Assembly: GCF_900166635.1 (NCBI RefSeq)
Contig: NZ_LT800497.1
Span: 2,322,378 to 2,386,377 of the forward strand
Reading direction: 5' to 3'
DNA length: 64,000 bases
Origin: Oceanobacillus timonensis
Lineage (GTDB): Bacteria > Bacillota > Bacilli > Bacillales > Amphibacillaceae
Below, in pieces: positions 1,705 through 11,090 of this stretch (positions are counted from its first letter, which is position 1; each line of letters opens with the position of its first letter). Position numbers and translations under genes: made by a program. The notes under the pieces were generated by a model. It saw only the letters and a list, made by a program, of their open reading frames with translations, did no database searches and was not told the DNA's origin.

Positions 1705-1909
1705 AAAACTTCTGCTCCTTTATATATGTACTTTCATTAAGGTAAGACGCTTCTTCTGACTCGAAATGCTTTATTTCTAATGATTTCATTTCAACTTGCA
1801 TATCATTATATCAAAATCTGTCGATAAATAGAAATAGAATTCATTTGCTAAATTATGCATGGTAACGTATGATGAAACTGTGCAAATAAATTCAAGGTGG
1901 ATGGATAGC

Positions 1910-3952
1910 ATGAAGCAAATTCTGATAGTTGGCGCTGGTAAAGGTGGTACTGCATTATTCCACCTGTTTAAAGAAATGAAAAGCATGCAGATTCATGCAA
2001 TTGTTGACAGAGATTCCAATGCTCCTGCTATGAAATTGGCGGAAGAAGTGAATATTCAGACCAGTACAGATTGGAAAGATTGGGTTGACCATCCTATTGA
2101 TATTGTTGTCAATGTGACTGGTGAAGAAAACTTATTCGAAAAAATGATTGCGTTATTTCCAAGAAAGACAATCATTATTCCCGGGTCTGTAGCAAATATT
2201 ATTTATGAATTAATTCATGAGAAAACCGCTTTAACAGATGAAGTAAAAGTGCAGGCAAGTCGGCTTGAACTTATTCTCAATCATATGAATGACGGGATGA
2301 TTGTTGTTAATAAGAAGGAACAGGTACAGCTGTTAAATCGGCGTGCAGAACAAATTCTCGGTAAAAAAGAAAGAGATTATAAAGAGAAACCTATTAAAGA
2401 ATTACTAAAAACAAGCCGTTTATCCCATGTTTTAAGAAGCCAGAGAAAAGAATTGAATCAAAAGACCATTTTGGATAATGGTAAAAAAGTGATTGCTTCC
2501 CGTATTCCCATTATTAATAAAACAGGTGATTTAGTCGGAGCTTTTGCTGTTTTCAAAGATATTACCGAAGTGGTTCAATTAGCGGAAGAAAATACGGATT
2601 TAAACGAAATTAAAACCATGCTGGAAGCTATTATTAATTCTTCAGACGAGGCTATCAGTGTTGTCGATGAGCACGGAAACGGCCTGATTATTAATCCTGC
2701 CTATACAAGGATAACCGGGTTAACGGAAGAGGAAGTCATCAGCAAACCGGCAACAGTGGATATCTCAGAAGGTGATAGTGTTCATATGCAGGTTTTAAAG
2801 ACCAGGCGTGCAGTTCGCGGCGTACATATGAAGGTCGGGCCAGCCAGGAAAGACGTTATTGTGAATGGGGCGCCGGTTATTGTCCAGGGAAAAATGAAAG
2901 GCAGTGTCGGAGTGCTTCACGATGTCAGTGAATTACAATCTGTGACAAAAGAGTTAAAACGCGCTAGGCAGATTATCCGTAATCTGGAAGCGAAGTATAC
3001 ATTTGATGATATTATTGGTAACTCGCCGGAAATGAAACTTGCTTTAGAACAGGCGAAAGTAGGAGCGAAAACACCAGCCACGGTTCTCTTGAGAGGGGAG
3101 ACAGGTTCTGGGAAAGAGTTATTTGCTCAGGCTATACATCATGAAAGCGACCGGAAATTTAATAAATTTATTCGTGTGAATTGCGCCAAGCTATCCGGAC
3201 CTGCTTTGGAAAAAGAGCTGTTCGGCTCTGTAGAAGAAGAGACCGGAAAGTTAGCTAAAACAGAAGGACTGTTTGAACAAGCGGATAAAGGGAGTATCTT
3301 TCTTGATGAAATTGGCGAATTACCCTTAACTATTCAAAAAAAATTGCTTGATGTGCTAAAGGAAAATAAAGTCACTCCCGTGGGAGCGTCAAAACCTGTT
3401 TCTGTTGATGTCCGGGTGATTGCGGGTACAAATATTAATCCAGAGAAGGCTGTCATGAATCATCAGTTCGATGAAAATCTCTACTACCAAATCAATAAGC
3501 TACCAATATCGATCCCCTCATTAAAAGAGCGGGAAGAGGATATTCCAATGTTAATTGAGCATATTATTTATCAGTTGAATGAAGAATATGGGAAAAATGT
3601 TCAAAGAATATCCGATGAAGCTTTAACAAAACTGATGGAATATCATTGGCCCGGAAATGTCAGAGAAATGGCTAATGTCATCAGCCACTCCATGATATTT
3701 ATCGGCAATATGGAAGAACAGATCGAGGCATCTCATTTGCCAACATTGCAAACAAAGGAAATACCTGCAAATCAAGATATAGTACAGACGGATAAACCAT
3801 TAAAATTACAGGAAGCTTTAGATCGTTATGAAAAGAAATATTTACAAGAAGTGTATCTGCAATGTAATAAAAATAAGACGAAAACTGCTAAAGCATTACA
3901 AATATCTGTCCGCAATCTGTATTATAAGCTTGAAAAATATCAAATTGAATAA
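1910..3952 (+). CDS. bkdR: BkdR-type regulator (sigma-54 activator family) with a degenerate GAFTGA loop
   Basis: In the family, BkdR activates branched-chain keto-acid catabolism genes. This 680-residue protein has a Rossmann-like N-terminal domain (VGAGKGG at about 6-12), two PAS-like regions (about 120-235 and 240-355), an AAA+ domain (about 370-600) and a Fis-type helix-turn-helix at the C-terminus (about 635-680). Walker A (GETGSGKE, 396-403) and Walker B (GSIFLDEIGEL) are present. The sigma-54 contact loop is not: after ELFG (436-439) the protein reads SVEEETGK instead of a GAFTGA-containing sequence. The usual LYYRL motif reads LYYQI. I chose the ATG at 1910 because AAGGTGG lies 9 nt upstream. 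The open frame extends 17 codons further without a ribosome site. It may regulate without sigma-54, as TyrR does; that is inference. Confidence 0.88.
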   Translation: MKQILIVGAGKGGTALFHLFKEMKSMQIHAIVDRDSNAPAMKLAEEVNIQTSTDWKDWVDHPIDIVVNVTGEENLFEKMIALFPRKTIIIPGSVANIIYELIHEKTALTDEVKVQASRLELILNHMNDGMIVVNKKEQVQLLNRRAEQILGKKERDYKEKPIKELLKTSRLSHVLRSQRKELNQKTILDNGKKVIASRIPIINKTGDLVGAFAVFKDITEVVQLAEENTDLNEIKTMLEAIINSSDEAISVVDEHGNGLIINPAYTRITGLTEEEVISKPATVDISEGDSVHMQVLKTRRAVRGVHMKVGPARKDVIVNGAPVIVQGKMKGSVGVLHDVSELQSVTKELKRARQIIRNLEAKYTFDDIIGNSPEMKLALEQAKVGAKTPATVLLRGETGSGKELFAQAIHHESDRKFNKFIRVNCAKLSGPALEKELFGSVEEETGKLAKTEGLFEQADKGSIFLDEIGELPLTIQKKLLDVLKENKVTPVGASKPVSVDVRVIAGTNINPEKAVMNHQFDENLYYQINKLPISIPSLKEREEDIPMLIEHIIYQLNEEYGKNVQRISDEALTKLMEYHWPGNVREMANVISHSMIFIGNMEEQIEASHLPTLQTKEIPANQDIVQTDKPLKLQEALDRYEKKYLQEVYLQCNKNKTKTAKALQISVRNLYYKLEKYQIE

Positions 3953-4098
3953 AATAGTCTGCAAATTTTTGCGTGATAGCATGCTTACCAACCGTGGATA
4001 ATAACAGATGCATCATACTATATGTGATACTTTTGCGTCTGTTGTTTGAAATAACATGCAAGAAGAATGAATCTCGAGTTACTATAGGAGGGTTTAAC

Positions 4099-5196
4099 AT
4101 GGAAATCTTTAATTACTTAGAAAAATACGATTATGAACAGGTGCTTTTTTGTCAGGATAAACAATCAGGGCTAAAAGCTATTATAGCAATTCATGATACG
4201 ACATTAGGGCCGGCGCTGGGCGGAACCAGAATGTGGGAATATGATTCCGAAGCAGAAGCTATCGAGGATGCACTGCGTCTGGCACGTGGGATGACTTATA
4301 AAAATGCAGCAGCCGGCTTGGACCTGGGCGGCGGGAAAACCGTGATTATCGGGAATCCTGAGAAGGATAAGAACCCGGAAATGTTTCGTGCTTTCGGCCG
4401 TTATGTTCAAAGTTTAAACGGCAGATATATCACTGCTGAAGACGTTGGAACAACGGAAGCAGACATGGATCAAATTGGGCTTGAAACGGAATATGTAACA
4501 GGATTATCTGCATATAGCGGCACAGCGGGGAATCCATCGCCTATTACAGCACTTGGCATTTTTCAAGGAATGAAGGCTACCGCAAAGGAAGCTTTTGGAT
4601 CAGAATCTTTAGAAGGAAAGACCATTGCTGTTCAAGGAGTCGGAAATGTCGCTTACAGCTTATGCGAATTATTGCATGAAGAGGGCGCACATTTAATTGT
4701 TACAGATATTAATAAAGAAGCGGTGAAGCGTGCGCAAGATAATTTTAATGCCAAAGCTGTTGATCCGGATGATATTTATGATGTGGAATGTGATATTTAT
4801 GCCCCTTGTGCACTGGGAGCGACCATTAATGATAATACCATCCCAAGACTGAAAGCAAAAGTAGTAGCAGGATCGGCAAACAATCAGTTAAAAAGCCGTG
4901 AACATGGCGAGATTCTGCATCAAAAAGGGATCTTATATGCCCCTGACTATGTCATTAATGCTGGGGGAGTCATTAATGTTGCAGATGAATTAGTTGGTTA
5001 TAATCGTGATCGCGCATTACAAAATGTACAGCGCATTTATAAAAATCTGGAGCAAGTCTTTGCTATCTCGAATCGTGATGATATTCCAACAGATATTGCA
5101 GCTGATCGGCTTGCAGAGGAAAGAATTCAGGCAAAATTAAAATCACGTAATCAATTTATGACAAATGAACGAAATATATTAGACCGTAGACAATAG
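4099..5196 (+). CDS. bcd: leucine dehydrogenase (branched-chain amino acid dehydrogenase)
   Basis: The enzyme converts leucine, valine and isoleucine plus NAD+ to the 2-oxo acids and ammonium, feeding the Bkd complex. The product is 365 residues, the usual length. It has the glycine-rich motif GLDLGGGK with catalytic Lys80, the GTTEADM segment of Glu/Leu/Phe dehydrogenases, and the NAD fold ([13 protein letters not shown]). The ATG at 4099 was chosen because AGGAGGG lies 6 nt upstream; the frame is open for 42 more codons but without a ribosome site or conserved sequence. It is the first gene of the operon here. In B. subtilis ptb precedes it. Confidence 0.95.
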
Positions 5197-5250: not shown

Positions 5251-6345
5251 GTGAACCAAAGGGCTCGTATTTTAGTTATCTATCCTGACTTGTATTTCAC
5301 CACGATTGGTGTGTTTGAGGAGAATCATCTTTTATATCAGCAAAAGATTACGCATAACGAAGATGAATTGTATCATTTTGACCAGCTGATTGACCAAGTT
5401 CCATACAGAAAGCAGGCTATATTTGAACAGTTGGACTTGGATGGGATGAATACATCACATTTCATCAGTGTGTGCGGCCGGGGCGGCCTATTACGACCAA
5501 TCAGTGGTGGAACATATCGCGTAAACGATGCGATGTTGTACGATTTAAAAACGAATGCTTATGGGGAACATGTATCGAATTTGGGTGCGATATTAGCGCA
5601 TGAGATAGCTGATAATTTAAATATCCAGGCATACATTGTCGATCCCCCGGTTGTAGATGAAATGCACAATATAGCAAAATATACCGGTATTCCTGAAATA
5701 AAAAGAACAAGCATTTTTCATTCTCTGAATCACCGGCATGCCGGCAGAATTGCTGCCAAGCAACTTGGGGTAACATACCGTACATTAAAGCTGATTTCCG
5801 TTCATATTGCCAGAGGAATTACAATCGCTTCGCATTATCAGGGGAGAATTATCGATGTAACCAACGGGGTAGATGGAGAAGGCCCATTTACCGTTGACCG
5901 GTCGGGAAGTATCCCGTTAAAAGGTTTCTTGACCTATCTGTCTGACCACTATGCTCTGAATGAAGGTTTCTTATGGAACCATGTACAGCATGCCGGCGGA
6001 ATAAAAGCTTATTTGCATACAGAGGATCCATTGATTATCCGCTCCAGATTATTGCAAGAAGATCAGCAAACAAAAGAAGTCATAGAAGCACAAGCATACC
6101 AGATTGCCAAAGAAATCGGGGCAATGAGTGCTGTGTTATGTGGGGAAGTAGACGGGATTGTTTTTACTGGAAAGATAGATGAAAATGATTTTGTCATTGA
6201 CGCGATTATTCCGAGAATAAACTGGATTGCGGATGTGATGGTTTTTTCTGGAAAAAATGATTTAGAAGCGATGAATGAAGGGGTTTTAGAAGTATTAAAT
6301 AGCCCTGGAGAAGCGAAGATATATGTTGCAGAGGAGGCTGAGTAG
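5251..6345 (+). CDS. buk: butyrate / branched-chain carboxylate kinase
   Basis: This acetokinase-family enzyme interconverts acyl phosphates (butyryl, isobutyryl, isovaleryl) and the free acid with ATP production. The 364-residue protein contains VDPPVVDEM and GEGPFTVDRSG, typical of Buk. Translation starts at GTG 5251, 8 nt after GGAGG. The stop codon directly abuts the ATG of lpdV. Its normal partner, phosphate butyryltransferase (Ptb), is not encoded in the window, so its acyl-phosphate supply must come from elsewhere. Confidence 0.93.
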   Translation: MNQRARILVIYPDLYFTTIGVFEENHLLYQQKITHNEDELYHFDQLIDQVPYRKQAIFEQLDLDGMNTSHFISVCGRGGLLRPISGGTYRVNDAMLYDLKTNAYGEHVSNLGAILAHEIADNLNIQAYIVDPPVVDEMHNIAKYTGIPEIKRTSIFHSLNHRHAGRIAAKQLGVTYRTLKLISVHIARGITIASHYQGRIIDVTNGVDGEGPFTVDRSGSIPLKGFLTYLSDHYALNEGFLWNHVQHAGGIKAYLHTEDPLIIRSRLLQEDQQTKEVIEAQAYQIAKEIGAMSAVLCGEVDGIVFTGKIDENDFVIDAIIPRINWIADVMVFSGKNDLEAMNEGVLEVLNSPGEAKIYVAEEAE

Positions 6346-7767
6346 ATGGCCACAGAATATGATTTAGTCATTTTAGGGGGCGGAACAGGCGGCTACGTTG
6401 CTGCTATCCGTGCGAGTCAGTTAAATATGAAAGTAGCAATCGTAGAAAAAGCCGAATTAGGAGGAACCTGCTTACATAGAGGTTGTATTCCTTCCAAAGC
6501 ATTATTGCGCAGTGCGGAAGTTTACCAGCAAACGATAAAAGCTGATACATTCGGGGTTGAAGTGCATTCACCTACATTAAATTTCGCAAAGGTGCAACAG
6601 AGGAAAAATAACATTATTGAACAGTTACACAAAGGTGTCCAAGGTTTAATGAAAAAAGGAAAAATTGATGTTTATCAAGGTTTTGGCCGTATTTTGGGAC
6701 CTAGCATCTTTTCTCCTATGCCTGGGACGATTTCTGTTGAATATGAAAACGGAAATGAAAATGACATGCTACTTCCAAAAAATGTATTAATCGCTACTGG
6801 ATCGCAGCCAAATACGTTACCTGGACTGGATTTCGATGGTGAATATGTCATCAGCTCGAATGAAGCTTTAGAAATGGAAGAACTTCCAAAGTCCGTCGTT
6901 ATAGTTGGCGGCGGCGTTATTGGTATCGAATGGGCATCCATGCTGAATGATTTCGGAGTAGATGTCACGGTTTTAGAATATCAAAAACAAATTTTGCCGA
7001 CAGAGGATAAAGATGTTGCGAAAGAAATGGAAAAACAGCTGAAAAAACGGGGCGTACACATTATAACAGGAGCTAATGTTCAAACAGATACATTAGAAAA
7101 AGATAACGGAGTAATGGTGGAAGCAATAATTGGTGATAAACAAGAACGTTTTGAAGCAGACAGATTACTCGTATCTGTTGGCAGACAAGCGAATACGCAA
7201 AATATTGGTTTGGAGAATACAGATATTCAACTTTCTAACCATACGATTGATACGAATCCATTTTATCAAACCAAGGAATCGCATATTTATGCTATTGGTG
7301 ATGTTATTGGAGGCATGCAGCTTGCACATGTGGCTTCCCATGAAGGAATCACAGCTGTAGAACATATGGCAGGTAAATACACACAGGAAATAGACTACCA
7401 GTCGGTATCAAGCTGTATTTATGCAAGCCCGGAAGCTGCAAGCGTCGGTTTAACTGAAGAACAGGCAAAAGAAGAAGGATATGAACTCGTTATCGGGAAG
7501 TTTCCTTTTAAAGCTGTTGGGAAAGCATTAGTATATGGAGAAACAGATGGTTTTGTTAAAATGATTACCGATAAAAAAACACAGGATTTATTAGGGGTTC
7601 ATATGATTGGACCTCAAGTAACAGACATGATATCCGAAGCAGGTCTAGCAAAAGTGCTCGACGCAACTGCATGGGAAATCAGCCAGACCATTCATCCGCA
7701 TCCTTCTTTATCAGAAGTAATCGGTGAAGCAGCGCTGGCAGTTGATGGAATACAAATTCATGGATAA
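6346..7767 (+). CDS. lpdV: dihydrolipoamide dehydrogenase (E3) of the branched-chain complex
   Basis: This FAD enzyme reoxidises the lipoyl group of E2 and makes NADH. The 473-residue product has an N-terminal FAD loop (GGGTGGY), the redox-active disulfide Cys42/Cys47 in GGTCLHRGCIPSK, an NAD-binding loop (VGGGVIGIEWAS), and the C-terminal HPHPSLSEVIGE with the His-Glu catalytic pair. It follows buk with no spacing, so translation is probably coupled. Position inside the bkd operon identifies it as LpdV rather than the E3 of pyruvate dehydrogenase. Confidence 0.94.
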   Translation: MATEYDLVILGGGTGGYVAAIRASQLNMKVAIVEKAELGGTCLHRGCIPSKALLRSAEVYQQTIKADTFGVEVHSPTLNFAKVQQRKNNIIEQLHKGVQGLMKKGKIDVYQGFGRILGPSIFSPMPGTISVEYENGNENDMLLPKNVLIATGSQPNTLPGLDFDGEYVISSNEALEMEELPKSVVIVGGGVIGIEWASMLNDFGVDVTVLEYQKQILPTEDKDVAKEMEKQLKKRGVHIITGANVQTDTLEKDNGVMVEAIIGDKQERFEADRLLVSVGRQANTQNIGLENTDIQLSNHTIDTNPFYQTKESHIYAIGDVIGGMQLAHVASHEGITAVEHMAGKYTQEIDYQSVSSCIYASPEAASVGLTEEQAKEEGYELVIGKFPFKAVGKALVYGETDGFVKMITDKKTQDLLGVHMIGPQVTDMISEAGLAKVLDATAWEISQTIHPHPSLSEVIGEAALAVDGIQIHG

Positions 7768-7814: not shown

Positions 7815-8828
7815 ATGGCACAAACATCTTGGGAAAATGTAAGTGACGAACTGGCTTTAGAAATGTTTGAAATGATGCTGTTAGCAAGAAAAATTGACGA
7901 AAGAATGTGGCTGTTAAACCGTTCCGGGAAAATTTCATTTGTGGTTTCTTGCCAAGGACAAGAAGCAGCACAAGTGGGAGCTGCATTTGCATTGAATCGC
8001 AAGGAAGATTATATTGCACCTTATTATCGGGATTTAGGCGTTGTTCTTGCGTTTGGAATGACTGCTCAAGATATTATGCTTTCCGCTTTTGGTAAAGCAG
8101 AAGACCCAAACTCTGGCGGAAGACAAATGCCGGGACATTTCGGTCAGAAAAAAAATCGCATACTAACTGGATCTTCTCCAGTAACAACCCAACTTCCGCA
8201 TGCTGTTGGCGTAGCGCTCGCTGCTAAAATGGATAAGAAAGACATCACCGCTTTTGTCACTTTAGGAGAGGGTTCTTCCAATCAAGGTGACTTTCATGAA
8301 GGATTAAATTTTGCCGGCGTTCAAAAACTTCCGGTTATTACCATGGTCGAAAACAACCAATATGCCATTTCTGTGCCTTATGATAAGCAAGTAGCAAGTA
8401 AGACCGTCGCAGAACGTGCGTCTTCTTATGGCATGCCGGGAATTACCGTGGACGGAAATGATCCAATTGCGGTTTACCAAGCGGTAAGAGAAGCGAGAGA
8501 ACTGGCAGCGAGTGGCGGAGGGCCAACTTTGATTGAAGCTTTAACCTATCGTTTTACAGCTCATTCCAGTGATGATGATGATCGTGCTTATCGGGAAGAT
8601 GATGAAGTGAAAGAAGCGAAAGAAAAAGATTCGATTGTAACATTTGCTGCAACCTTGAAAGAAAAGCAAATTTTAGATGACTCCAAAGAAAAAGAAATTC
8701 ATGAGCGGATTGACAAACTGATCAATAGTGCAACGGATTATGCAGAAAAAGCTGCTTTTGCGGATCCGGAAGACACATTAAAATACGTATATGAAGAACT
8801 GGATGAAGGAGGCGAAAATAATGCCTAA
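7815..8828 (+). CDS. bkdAA: 2-oxoisovalerate dehydrogenase E1 alpha subunit
   Basis: E1 decarboxylates branched 2-oxo acids with thiamine diphosphate and passes the acyl group to the lipoyl arm of E2. The 337-residue subunit shows the thiamine-diphosphate motif from GEG (151) to the ENN pair (179-181). The phosphorylation-loop region near YRFTAHSSDDDD is typical of E1 alpha chains. A GGAGGG site lies 6 nt before the ATG. Its stop codon overlaps the start of bkdAB by 8 nt. Confidence 0.94.
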   Translation: MAQTSWENVSDELALEMFEMMLLARKIDERMWLLNRSGKISFVVSCQGQEAAQVGAAFALNRKEDYIAPYYRDLGVVLAFGMTAQDIMLSAFGKAEDPNSGGRQMPGHFGQKKNRILTGSSPVTTQLPHAVGVALAAKMDKKDITAFVTLGEGSSNQGDFHEGLNFAGVQKLPVITMVENNQYAISVPYDKQVASKTVAERASSYGMPGITVDGNDPIAVYQAVREARELAASGGGPTLIEALTYRFTAHSSDDDDRAYREDDEVKEAKEKDSIVTFAATLKEKQILDDSKEKEIHERIDKLINSATDYAEKAAFADPEDTLKYVYEELDEGGENNA

Positions 8829-9804
8829 TATGTCTTATATTCAAGCAATTACCAGCGCTTTACGAGAAGAAATGGAGCGGGATGAAAGTGTCTTTCTTCT
8901 TGGAGAAGATGTAGGGAAAAAAGGCGGTGTATTTAAAGCGACGGAAGGGCTTTACCAGCAATTTGGCGAAGACCGCGTTTTAGACACCCCGTTAGCAGAG
9001 TCGGCGATTGCCGGAGTTGCTATTGGTGCAGCGATGTACGGAAAGCGTCCAGTTGCTGAAATGCAATTCGCTGATTTTATTATGCCTGCTGTCAACCAGA
9101 TTATTTCCGAAGCAGCTAAAATGCGTTACCGTTCTAACAATGATTGGAATGCGCCCATTACGATACGTGCGCCATACGGGGCTGGTGTGCATGGCGGATT
9201 GTATCATTCTCAATCCGTTGAAGCAGTATTTGCAAATCAGCCGGGGTTAAAGATTGTTATGCCATCGACACCTTATGACGCAAAAGGTCTATTAAAAGCC
9301 TCCATTCGAGATAACGATCCAGTTTTATATTTTGAACATAAACGTGCTTATCGCTTGTTAAAAGAAGAAGTACCAGAAGAGGATTATGTCGTTCCAATTG
9401 GAAAAGCAGACGTCAAAAGAGAAGGGGATGACATTACGGTAATTACCTATGGTTTATGTGTTCATTTTGCTTTGCAGGCAGCTGAAAAGTTAGCAGCGGA
9501 TGGAATCGAAGCACATATTCTTGATTTGCGTACGGTCTATCCTCTTGATAAAGAAGCCATTCAAGAAGCAGCAAGTAAAACAGGAAAAGTATTACTAATC
9601 ACGGAGGATAATAAAGAGGGAAGTATTATTAGTGAGGCTGCTGCGATTATTTCTGAAGAATGCCTTTTTGATCTGGATGCTCCCATTCAGCGTTTGGCTG
9701 GACCTGATACGCCGGCAACACCATTTGCGCCAGTATTGGAGAAGTTCTTTTTGCTAAATCCGGACAAAGTAGAAAAAGCAATGCGTGACCTTGCAGAATA
9801 TTAA
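8821..9804 (+). CDS. bkdAB: 2-oxoisovalerate dehydrogenase E1 beta subunit
   Basis: This is the beta chain that completes the E1 active site. The start at 8821 (MPNMSYIQAI) is chosen because GGAGG lies 8 nt upstream, it gives the family length of 327 residues, and the first residues match the family's N-terminus. The frame is open 10 codons further upstream, inside bkdAA. Conserved blocks include GEDVGKKGGVF, DTPLAESAI and the C-terminal transketolase region (LITEDNKEGSI). Confidence 0.93.
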   Translation: MPNMSYIQAITSALREEMERDESVFLLGEDVGKKGGVFKATEGLYQQFGEDRVLDTPLAESAIAGVAIGAAMYGKRPVAEMQFADFIMPAVNQIISEAAKMRYRSNNDWNAPITIRAPYGAGVHGGLYHSQSVEAVFANQPGLKIVMPSTPYDAKGLLKASIRDNDPVLYFEHKRAYRLLKEEVPEEDYVVPIGKADVKREGDDITVITYGLCVHFALQAAEKLAADGIEAHILDLRTVYPLDKEAIQEAASKTGKVLLITEDNKEGSIISEAAAIISEECLFDLDAPIQRLAGPDTPATPFAPVLEKFFLLNPDKVEKAMRDLAEY

Positions 9805-9818
9805 TTGGAGGTAGAAAT

Positions 9819-11090
9819 ATGACTGTGGAAAAAATGACAATGCCTCAGCTTGGTGAGAGTGTAACAGAGGGAACGATCAGTATCTGGCTTGTTTCTGTCG
9901 GGGATCAGGTAAATAAATACGACCCGATTGCGGAAGTGATGACGGATAAAGTAAATGCCGAAATTCCCTCTTCCTATACAGGGAAAATAACAGAACTGAC
10001 AGCAGCAGAAGGGGAAACGATAGAAGTTGGAACCCTGATTTGCTATATCGAAACAGAAGAGGCTGCATCAGAGGATGCAGAAGCACCTTCTGATACAGAA
10101 ACAAGTAAAGAGGAAAATACTGCTGATAAACAAGTTGAGAATACAGACAGCTCGATGAAAAAAAGATATTCGCCGGCCGTATTACGCTTGTCTCAAGAGC
10201 ATCAGATTGATTTAAATAAAATCGAAGGATCTGGAAGAGGCGGAAGAATTACCAGGAAAGATGTGGAAAAATACATTGAAAATGGCGATGCTGTCCAGAA
10301 GCAATCTGCGCCGTCACAGGAGAAGAAAACGGAGACTGCTGCTGTGAAAGAAACACCTTCGACACAACAAGAAAGCACCCAGAGCGCTGCTGGAGATACC
10401 GAAATTCCTGTAAAAGGAGTTCGAAAAGTGATTGCCGAAAATATGGTCCGTTCTACACAAGAAATCCCCCATGCCTGGATGCAGGTAGAGGTAGATGTGA
10501 CCGAATTAGTGAAATACCGTAATAGTGTGAAAGAATCCTTTAAAGAGCAGGAAGGTTTTTCATTAACCCCCTTTGCTTTCTTCGTCAAAGCAGTTGCTCA
10601 GGGGCTAAAAGAATTCCCTGAATTAAACAGCATGTGGGCAGGAGATAAAATTATTCAAAAAAAAGATATTCATTTATCGATTGCGGTGGCAAAAGACAAT
10701 GAATTATTCGTTCCTGTCATCAAACATGCGGATGAAAAAACGATTAAAGCAATCGCCCGTGATATTACAACGCTTGCTGCCAAAGCACGTCAGGGAAAAC
10801 TGTCTCAGGAGGATATGCAGGGCGGTACATTTACGGTCAACAATACAGGTTCTTTTGGTTCGGTCTCTTCAATGGGAATTATTAATTCCCCGCAGGCTGC
10901 GATTTTACAAGTTGAATCGATTGTAAAACGACCTGTTATTATCAATGATATGTTTGCCGCTCGTGACATGGTGAATCTATCTCTTTCTTTAGATCACCGT
11001 ATTTTAGACGGTCTTGTATGCGGCAGATTTTTATCTCGTGTGAAAGAAATTTTAGAAGGGATGAATGCATCATCCGTAAGCCTTTATTAA
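9819..11090 (+). CDS. bkdB: branched-chain keto-acid dehydrogenase E2 (dihydrolipoyl acyltransferase)
   Basis: E2 is the scaffold that transfers the branched acyl group to CoA. The 423-residue protein has an N-terminal lipoyl domain with Lys44 in MTDKVNAEIP, an acidic linker (about 75-112), a peripheral-subunit-binding domain (about 116-150, SGRGGRITRKDV), a second polar linker, and the catalytic domain ending with DHRILDG, whose His and Asp are catalytic. It is the last gene of the complex. The product acyl-CoAs prime iso/anteiso fatty acids, as established for bacilli. Confidence 0.94.
   Translation: MTVEKMTMPQLGESVTEGTISIWLVSVGDQVNKYDPIAEVMTDKVNAEIPSSYTGKITELTAAEGETIEVGTLICYIETEEAASEDAEAPSDTETSKEENTADKQVENTDSSMKKRYSPAVLRLSQEHQIDLNKIEGSGRGGRITRKDVEKYIENGDAVQKQSAPSQEKKTETAAVKETPSTQQESTQSAAGDTEIPVKGVRKVIAENMVRSTQEIPHAWMQVEVDVTELVKYRNSVKESFKEQEGFSLTPFAFFVKAVAQGLKEFPELNSMWAGDKIIQKKDIHLSIAVAKDNELFVPVIKHADEKTIKAIARDITTLAAKARQGKLSQEDMQGGTFTVNNTGSFGSVSSMGIINSPQAAILQVESIVKRPVIINDMFAARDMVNLSLSLDHRILDGLVCGRFLSRVKEILEGMNASSVSLY

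Follow-up and report, generated by a model that had tools for sequence, protein, structure and literature searches.

The GAFTGA motif has been called invariant in sigma-54-specific activators (PMC12316311, available text). How, then, is a bkd operon, which serves the breakdown of branched-chain amino acids, controlled when the regulator encoded next to it, BkdR, carries no such motif? This question is raised by a locus in the window, that is, the whole 64-kb stretch of DNA analysed here, in which bkdR lies directly 5' of the bkd operon. Here, we compare the regulator, its neighbouring promoter region and the presence of SigL (RpoN) across related bacteria, and weigh the explanations that this comparison leaves standing.

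A BkdR protein without the sigma-54 contact loop

BkdR is composed of two PAS domains, an AAA+ domain (Sigma54_activat, PF00158, 178 bits) and a Fis-type helix-turn-helix, and it can be aligned over its full length with its relatives, which together with its position places it in the BkdR orthologue group. The longest open reading frame begins at 1859 (a 697-aa reading). The closest database protein among the matches listed, P0001, which is annotated Oceanobacillus locisalsi and is 93% identical to BkdR, has 680 aa and matches a start at ATG 1910. The features of the gene are as follows:

1910..3952, + strand: bkdR coding sequence, likely start ATG 1910, 680 aa, with an AGGTGG ribosome-binding site at 1895-1900
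3215..3226, + strand: ELFG, immediately 5' of the sigma-54 contact loop
3227..3262, + strand: SVEEETGKLAKT where intact relatives have the GAFTGA stretch; the loop that contacts sigma-54 is gone
3467..3493, + strand: FDENLYYQI, replacing FREDLYYRL, with neither arginine left
3824..3940, + strand: Fis-type helix-turn-helix, intact (PF02954 match at residues 656-694 when the frame is read as 697 aa)

A first-pass annotation of this DNA had claimed that GAFTGA is lost after ELFG at residues 436-439, and alignment bears this out, with the numbering being right if the protein starts at ATG 1910. BkdR reads ELFG-SVEEETGKLAKT-EGLFEQ, the residues after ELFG being SVEEETGKLAKTEGLFEQA, and most relatives have GAFTGA or GAFSGA at that place. 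From ELFG to FEQ there are 22 residues in BkdR versus 24 in the intact relative L016, and no remnant of the motif is present, indicating that GAFTGA was replaced with a net deletion of two residues. The loop is therefore absent, rather than present but shifted, which was the alternative that the annotation had itself named. Domain search and alignment also uphold its description of Walker A (GETGSGKE), Walker B (GSIFLDEIG) and the C-terminal helix-turn-helix as intact. Its change of LYYRL to LYYQI holds as well and can be extended, as the first arginine of FREDLYYR is gone too (FDENLYYQ). Judging by PspF, we take the two arginines of this motif to be the arginine fingers needed for ATP hydrolysis. 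Among the hallmarks of an enhancer-binding protein, BkdR has neither GAFTGA or an accepted variant of it nor these fingers (FDENLYYQI). The NCBIfam model for TyrR gave it 238.6 bits, under the cut-off of 576.

A sequencing error is an unlikely cause, since L010-L015, from six further species of the genus and 86-89% identical, do not have the loop either. The second arginine is gone in 7/7 species of this clade, where it is replaced by Q or L. Among the clade proteins compared, FDEN occurs in the window and P0001 only, and other members show YYQ or YYL. P0015, which is basal to the clade in a quick, unrooted 66-row tree, has no loop and keeps FREDLYYRI with both arginines, which suggests that the loop went before the second arginine and the second arginine before the first.

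A wider set of 172 database proteins, formed as the union of the best 120 of 7102 matches and the best 120 of 7283 matches and containing many near copies, was also searched for the strict motif G[AS]F[TS]GA. It is found in 127 proteins, all of which keep both arginines. The 45 proteins that miss it comprise 15 from the window's clade, 26 from another group, to which O. luteolus and O. alkalisoli belong, and four others.

The bkd operon and its missing sigma-54 promoter

Downstream of bkdR, the window holds the following region, in which the names bcd, bkdAA, bkdAB and bkdB are presumed from synteny:

3953..4098, + strand: bkdR-bcd gap without the -24/-12 site of intact relatives, best score 12.0 of 20
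4099..5196, + strand: bcd, leucine dehydrogenase type, first bkd gene (synteny; best NCBIfam model under cut-off)
5251..6345, + strand: buk, butyrate kinase (TIGR02707 above cut-off)
6346..7767, + strand: lpdV, dihydrolipoyl dehydrogenase, E3 (TIGR01350 above cut-off)
7815..8828, + strand: bkdAA, E1 alpha type (synteny; NCBIfam E1 alpha models under cut-off)
8821..9804, + strand: bkdAB, E1 beta type (synteny; NF006667, an E1 beta subfamily model, above cut-off; start set by the length of relatives)
9819..11090, + strand: bkdB, E2 type (synteny; NCBIfam E2 models under cut-off)

No ptb lies beside bkdR, and the single PTA/PTB-family match of the genome is far off (G000:C3:484578), so that buk may be without its usual partner.

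To place the empty gap in context, 123 BkdR loci were compared, 101 of them from the window's family and 22 from other families of the order. These were picked by eye at an E of 1e-138 or better, with the family matches G157 and G158 left out. A profile search of genome contigs with alignment A1 returned mostly distant activators and does not enter the counts. In each locus, the region from the bkdR stop to the next gene (bcd or ptb) was scored for TGGCACN5TTGCW, using the consensus of PMC4428206 (available text) with our own weights and a threshold of 17 that was set after the first 21 loci. L159, for which the next gene was not located, was scored over 300 nt and counted as intact with a site.

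Motif and site agree in 120/123 loci. The motif is intact and the site present in 88 loci, and both are gone in 32; three intact loci (L246, L247 and L257) have no site, and no altered locus has one. First-order Markov shuffles of the gaps would yield 3.27 sites in the 91 intact loci and 0.13 in the 32 altered ones, and Fisher's test, which ignores kinship, gives 2e-26. The absence of a -24/-12 site here and in all 32 altered loci supports, at the level of sequence, the earlier suggestion that this BkdR has switched to sigma-54-independent control. Elsewhere in the 64-kb window there are three sites scoring 18.5, so a lone -24/-12 match is not proof.

Kinship was taken into account on a tree of the 123 loci that was built without the loop and arginine columns and is quick, unrooted and marked by long branches among the degenerate sequences. 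On this tree the motif needs eight changes (seven of them forced by well-supported starred branches), the site nine and rpoN ten; on the smaller 66-row tree, motif and site need five each. Among seven independent pairs, the site moves with the motif in 5-6, shows no difference in 1-2 and moves in the opposite direction in none, a result that is borderline by sign test (median p 0.06, range 0.03-0.06). The paired loss of motif and predicted site is thus a pattern repeated in several related lineages. That three loci lost the site and keep the motif suggests that the promoter can go first. One of these, L246, is sister to L029, in which the sole motif change is first G to D, and L246 looks like an intermediate state.

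Several loci stand out in other respects. L023 (G026) keeps GAFTGA and the -24/-12 site, and four residues are missing directly after the motif. L050 (G013) has a perfect -24/-12 site (20/20) before bkdR too, 46 nt 5' of the start used. In genus g61 (L270, L272-L278), a heavily degenerate AAA+ domain occurs together with a conserved helix-turn-helix, and bkdR lies 18-25 nt 5' of ptb. Loss of ptb from beside bkdR was considered as a correlate of motif loss and rejected on the counts of next genes, which are ptb 56, bcd 34 and one not located in the 91 intact loci, and ptb 16 and bcd 16 in the 32 altered ones.

Putative operators and a probable sigma-A-type regulator

If the bkd operon has no sigma-54 promoter, other control elements might be expected around bkdR. 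The candidates in the window are:

1845..1873, + strand: sigma-A-like bkdR promoter TTGCTA-N17-TATGAT, kept in 7/7 clade members
1846..1859, + strand: O1, operator-like TGCTAAATTATGCA within the bkdR promoter, 8/10 matches, identical in 7/7 clade members
1881..1894, + strand: O2, degenerate putative operator TGCAAATAAATTCA just 5' of the ribosome-binding site, 8/10 matches
3960..3973, + strand: O3, operator-like TGCAAATTTTTGCG 3' of the bkdR stop, 9/10 matches

The promoter scan taken alone gives nine matches versus a shuffle mean of 10.6, which is no excess. The palindromes are read as putative BkdR sites from their position and symmetry. O3 has one mismatch in the window, is exact in 5/6 sister species and is lost in L010; it scores 9 or 10 of 10 in 6/7 clade members versus 0.11 expected. 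The same palindrome, TGCAAN4TTGCA, is found soon 3' of the bkdR stop in 73/91 intact loci (at least 9/10) versus 4.6 expected. Its extended form, CTGCAAN4TTGCAG, was searched for in five genomes and occurs at 1-3 sites in each, including the post-bkdR site in G009, G019 and G018. For the window's bkdR-bcd gap, no convincing sigma-A promoter was found, as promoter-like matches there are not above shuffles, and such a promoter was rejected because by eye no candidate is common to the sister species.

Taken together, it is quite probable that BkdR is a former sigma-54 activator that now serves as a local sigma-A-type regulator of bkdR and bkd. In the sequence, the contact loop and the presumed arginine fingers are gone along with the sigma-54 promoter of bkd, and SigL, BkdR, its DNA-binding domain and a putative operator are kept. 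ATP-driven remodelling would be gone from such a protein. It would instead bind near bkdR and bkd and modulate sigma-A RNA polymerase in the manner of TyrR. Its likeliest role would be that of a repressor or roadblock acting at the putative O1 and O3 under the control of a PAS-domain signal. The promoter would have been lost first or with the loop, followed in the clade by the second arginine and then the first. Against this reading stand the post-bkdR palindrome, which is kept in only 1/24 other altered loci whose gap spans 14 nt or more, versus 0.08 expected, and the longer form of O1, TTTGCTAA..ATGCA, which is rare outside the clade (9/60 scannable intact loci, 0/9 other altered loci).

A related explanation names the start of the transcript and is compatible with a sigma-A-type regulator. 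After loss of the sigma-54 promoter, bkd would be read from bkdR's sigma-A promoter, and the ancestral autoregulation of bkdR by its own product would come to control bkdR and bkd together. We give this a little under an even chance. It is favoured by the length of the gap between bkdR and the next gene, which is at least 99 nt (median 133) in the 87 intact loci that have a site and for which the next gene was located, and has a median of 62.5 nt in altered loci (n=32; Mann-Whitney p 7e-7, kinship ignored). Outside the window's clade, 22/25 altered loci have gaps of 79 nt or less, the shortest being 8 nt, and terminator-like structures in the gap are rare (1/91 intact and 1/32 altered loci). 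Such short gaps suggest that, in most altered lineages, transcription of bkd starts at the sigma-A promoter of bkdR. Supporting this, a TGCAAN4TTGCA-like operator (9-10/10) is found 25-36 nt 5' of the bkdR start in 57/60 intact and 9/9 non-clade altered loci, counts from a scan that was possible for 76/123 loci, the other 47 being unscannable. A 250-nt scan 5' of bkdR (at least 9/10) found matches in 71/91 intact loci versus 1.95 expected and 21/25 non-clade altered loci versus 0.85, several of them far from the bkdR start, and in 0/7 members of the window's clade. However, the window's clade keeps a gap of 135-191 nt together with O3, which makes transcription from bkdR's own promoter a weaker claim there. 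Its O2 is degenerate (8/10 and identical in 7/7 clade members, with 0/7 reaching at least 9), and three other altered loci have gaps of 141-322 nt.

More tentatively still, the loci may reflect one general series, in which the promoter is lost first, then the loop and, in some lineages, the arginine fingers, with capture of bkd by bkdR's sigma-A promoter and autoregulatory operators. Some eight such events would have taken place, in lineages that lost SigL as well as in lineages that kept it.

Selection on BkdR and genomes without bkdR

Alternatively, BkdR could be a decaying relic, bkd now being expressed from a sigma-A promoter that is either unregulated or controlled by CcpA. This is improbable for the window's clade, although the genus does provide examples of bkd genes without the regulator. 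G004, G006, G011, G016 and G022 have bcd and no BkdR orthologue, their best matches reaching only E 1e-68 to 1e-77. In those five genomes, the 1500 nt 5' of bcd showed no remnant of bkdR. In all five, lysC lies beside bcd on the other strand, and by eye three have a TTGTAC-N17/18-TATAAT promoter and a cre-like site 5' of bcd. The gene is thus dispensable there. The strongly degenerate AAA+ domain of genus g61 would also fit a relic.

In the window's clade, however, the bkdR frame is open in 7/7 species, the putative operator is kept in six of the seven, and dN/dS is low, at 0.01-0.07 across the PAS and AAA+ parts. Within the clade, PAS1 has values of 0.011-0.023, PAS2 of 0.017-0.038 and AAA+ of 0.027-0.067, with the helix-turn-helix part at 0-0.12 and the N-terminal part at 0.05-0.18, as computed for 8/21 pairs, with PAS1 undefined in one and dS near or beyond saturation in several. 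Six intact pairs gave mostly similar or higher values (PAS1 0.03-0.20, PAS2 0-0.03, AAA+ 0.03-0.12, helix-turn-helix part 0.02-0.28, N-terminal part 0.07-0.22).

Protein identities point the same way. Eighteen clade pairs with a PAS2 identity of 0.90-0.96 were compared with 68 intact pairs in the same range, the two sets being imperfectly matched in PAS2. Median identities in the clade are 0.957 for PAS1, 0.939 for PAS2, 0.879 for AAA+ and 0.938 for the helix-turn-helix part, versus 0.791, 0.908, 0.866 and 0.708, respectively, in the intact pairs. PAS1 and the helix-turn-helix therefore show higher conservation here than among intact pairs with comparable PAS2 identity, and AAA+ is the least conserved part in the clade and second-ranked in the intact pairs. 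As far as its sequence tells, BkdR is under purifying selection, is no obvious relic and is in use.

SigL is present in the window's lineage

The host genome carries rpoN (TIGR02395 above cut-off), as do 28/28 genomes of the genus. The same genome also encodes two activators that keep both motif and site: L001, with GSFTGA and a -24/-12 site alongside that scores 18.5/20, and L003, with GAFTGA and a site alongside that scores 20/20. We take L001 to be RocR-like and L003 to be LevR-like. These two activators are an internal control.

With SigL present, the altered loop of BkdR could in principle still contact sigma-54 at an atypical promoter elsewhere and activate other genes, and working activators are described as accepting single-residue variants of the motif (PMC3162934, available text). 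We consider this very unlikely, as the motif is wholly gone, both arginines are lost and none of the altered loci has a site by the operon. The first-pass annotation had proposed that the switch came about perhaps because the lineage lost or no longer uses SigL, an idea that fits other lineages (14/32 altered loci are in rpoN-less genomes) and can be set aside for this one, given rpoN in its own genome and throughout the genus and the motif and site of L001 and L003.

Beyond this lineage, the relation between motif and SigL is looser. Of the 32 motif-altered loci, 18 have rpoN in the same genome; for the other 14, the genome gave no PF04552 match and, in 14/14, no PF04963 match either. By comparison, rpoN is present for 89/91 motif-intact loci, the exceptions being L257 (G070), which has lost the site too, and L265 (G171), which keeps it. 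These counts suggest that loss of SigL may be one way in which the motif goes and that the window's clade followed a different route. A joint difference in motif and rpoN is seen in only about 2/7 independent pairs. L265 combines an intact GAFSGA and a perfect -24/-12 site with a genome that has neither a PF04552 nor a PF04963 match, which reflects either a recent loss of SigL or an assembly gap. A second, weaker match to the sigma-54 DNA-binding domain was seen in two sister species (G014:C2:177430-177846 and G018:C1:1678354-1678770).

Relation to known systems

Regulators of this fold without a functional GAFTGA have been described before, although the sources cited in this section are drawn on here only for their available text. 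In enteric bacteria, TyrR arose from PhhR, a sigma-54 activator, by disruption or loss of GAFTGA, and it regulates sigma-70 promoters, mostly as a repressor (PMC1173090). BkdR resembles TyrR in being, in all probability, an ex-sigma-54 activator, and in being without GAFTGA. Unlike TyrR, it belongs to another subfamily, and its target operon still adjoins its gene, which makes the loss of the target promoter traceable. NtrC of Caulobacter and Rhodobacter capsulatus has a deletion in the same loop and is reported to regulate sigma-70 promoters (PMC10274813). These are nitrogen-control response regulators, whereas BkdR is a PAS-type catabolic regulator from Bacillota that has lost its arginines too. 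TyrR, DhaR, HupR, VpsR and YplP are listed as being without a functional GAFTGA, and B. subtilis BkdR as having S in place of T4 of the motif (PMC3162934). VpsR (Vibrio cholerae; structure 7v2b), DhaR and HupR share the enhancer-binding-protein fold with BkdR and differ from it in pathway and subfamily.

The nearest comparison is with the Bacillus cereus group. In B. thuringiensis, the bkd promoter TTGGCACGGTATTTGCT requires both sigma-54 and BkdR (PMC4428206), and bkd is down in a B. cereus rpoN mutant (PMC4524646). In both, as in the window, bkdR adjoins the bkd operon, and the B. thuringiensis protein also has two PAS domains; unlike the window's BkdR, it has a GAFTGA-type motif. In the available text of the open-licence literature on BkdR, Oceanobacillus sigma-54 and GAFTGA loss, no description of a BkdR without GAFTGA was found.

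The principle is known from PhhR and TyrR, and the repeated series in a Gram-positive BkdR varies it in a new way. Earlier examples of sigma-54 activators that became sigma-70 regulators are single cases, such as PhhR to TyrR. Here, regulator, target promoter and SigL can be scored in 123 loci, among which the change occurred several times independently and apparent intermediates occur, so that the order of steps in such a switch, and its cause, can be tested. The case also highlights that annotation by domain only ("sigma 54-interacting transcriptional regulator") can mislead for whole clades.

The same genome also encodes a 589-aa PrpR-type regulator (L004:835-2604, - strand) with a partial Sigma54_activat match and no GAFTGA. 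Its best NCBIfam matches are to PrpR, under cut-off, and it is perhaps a second former activator.
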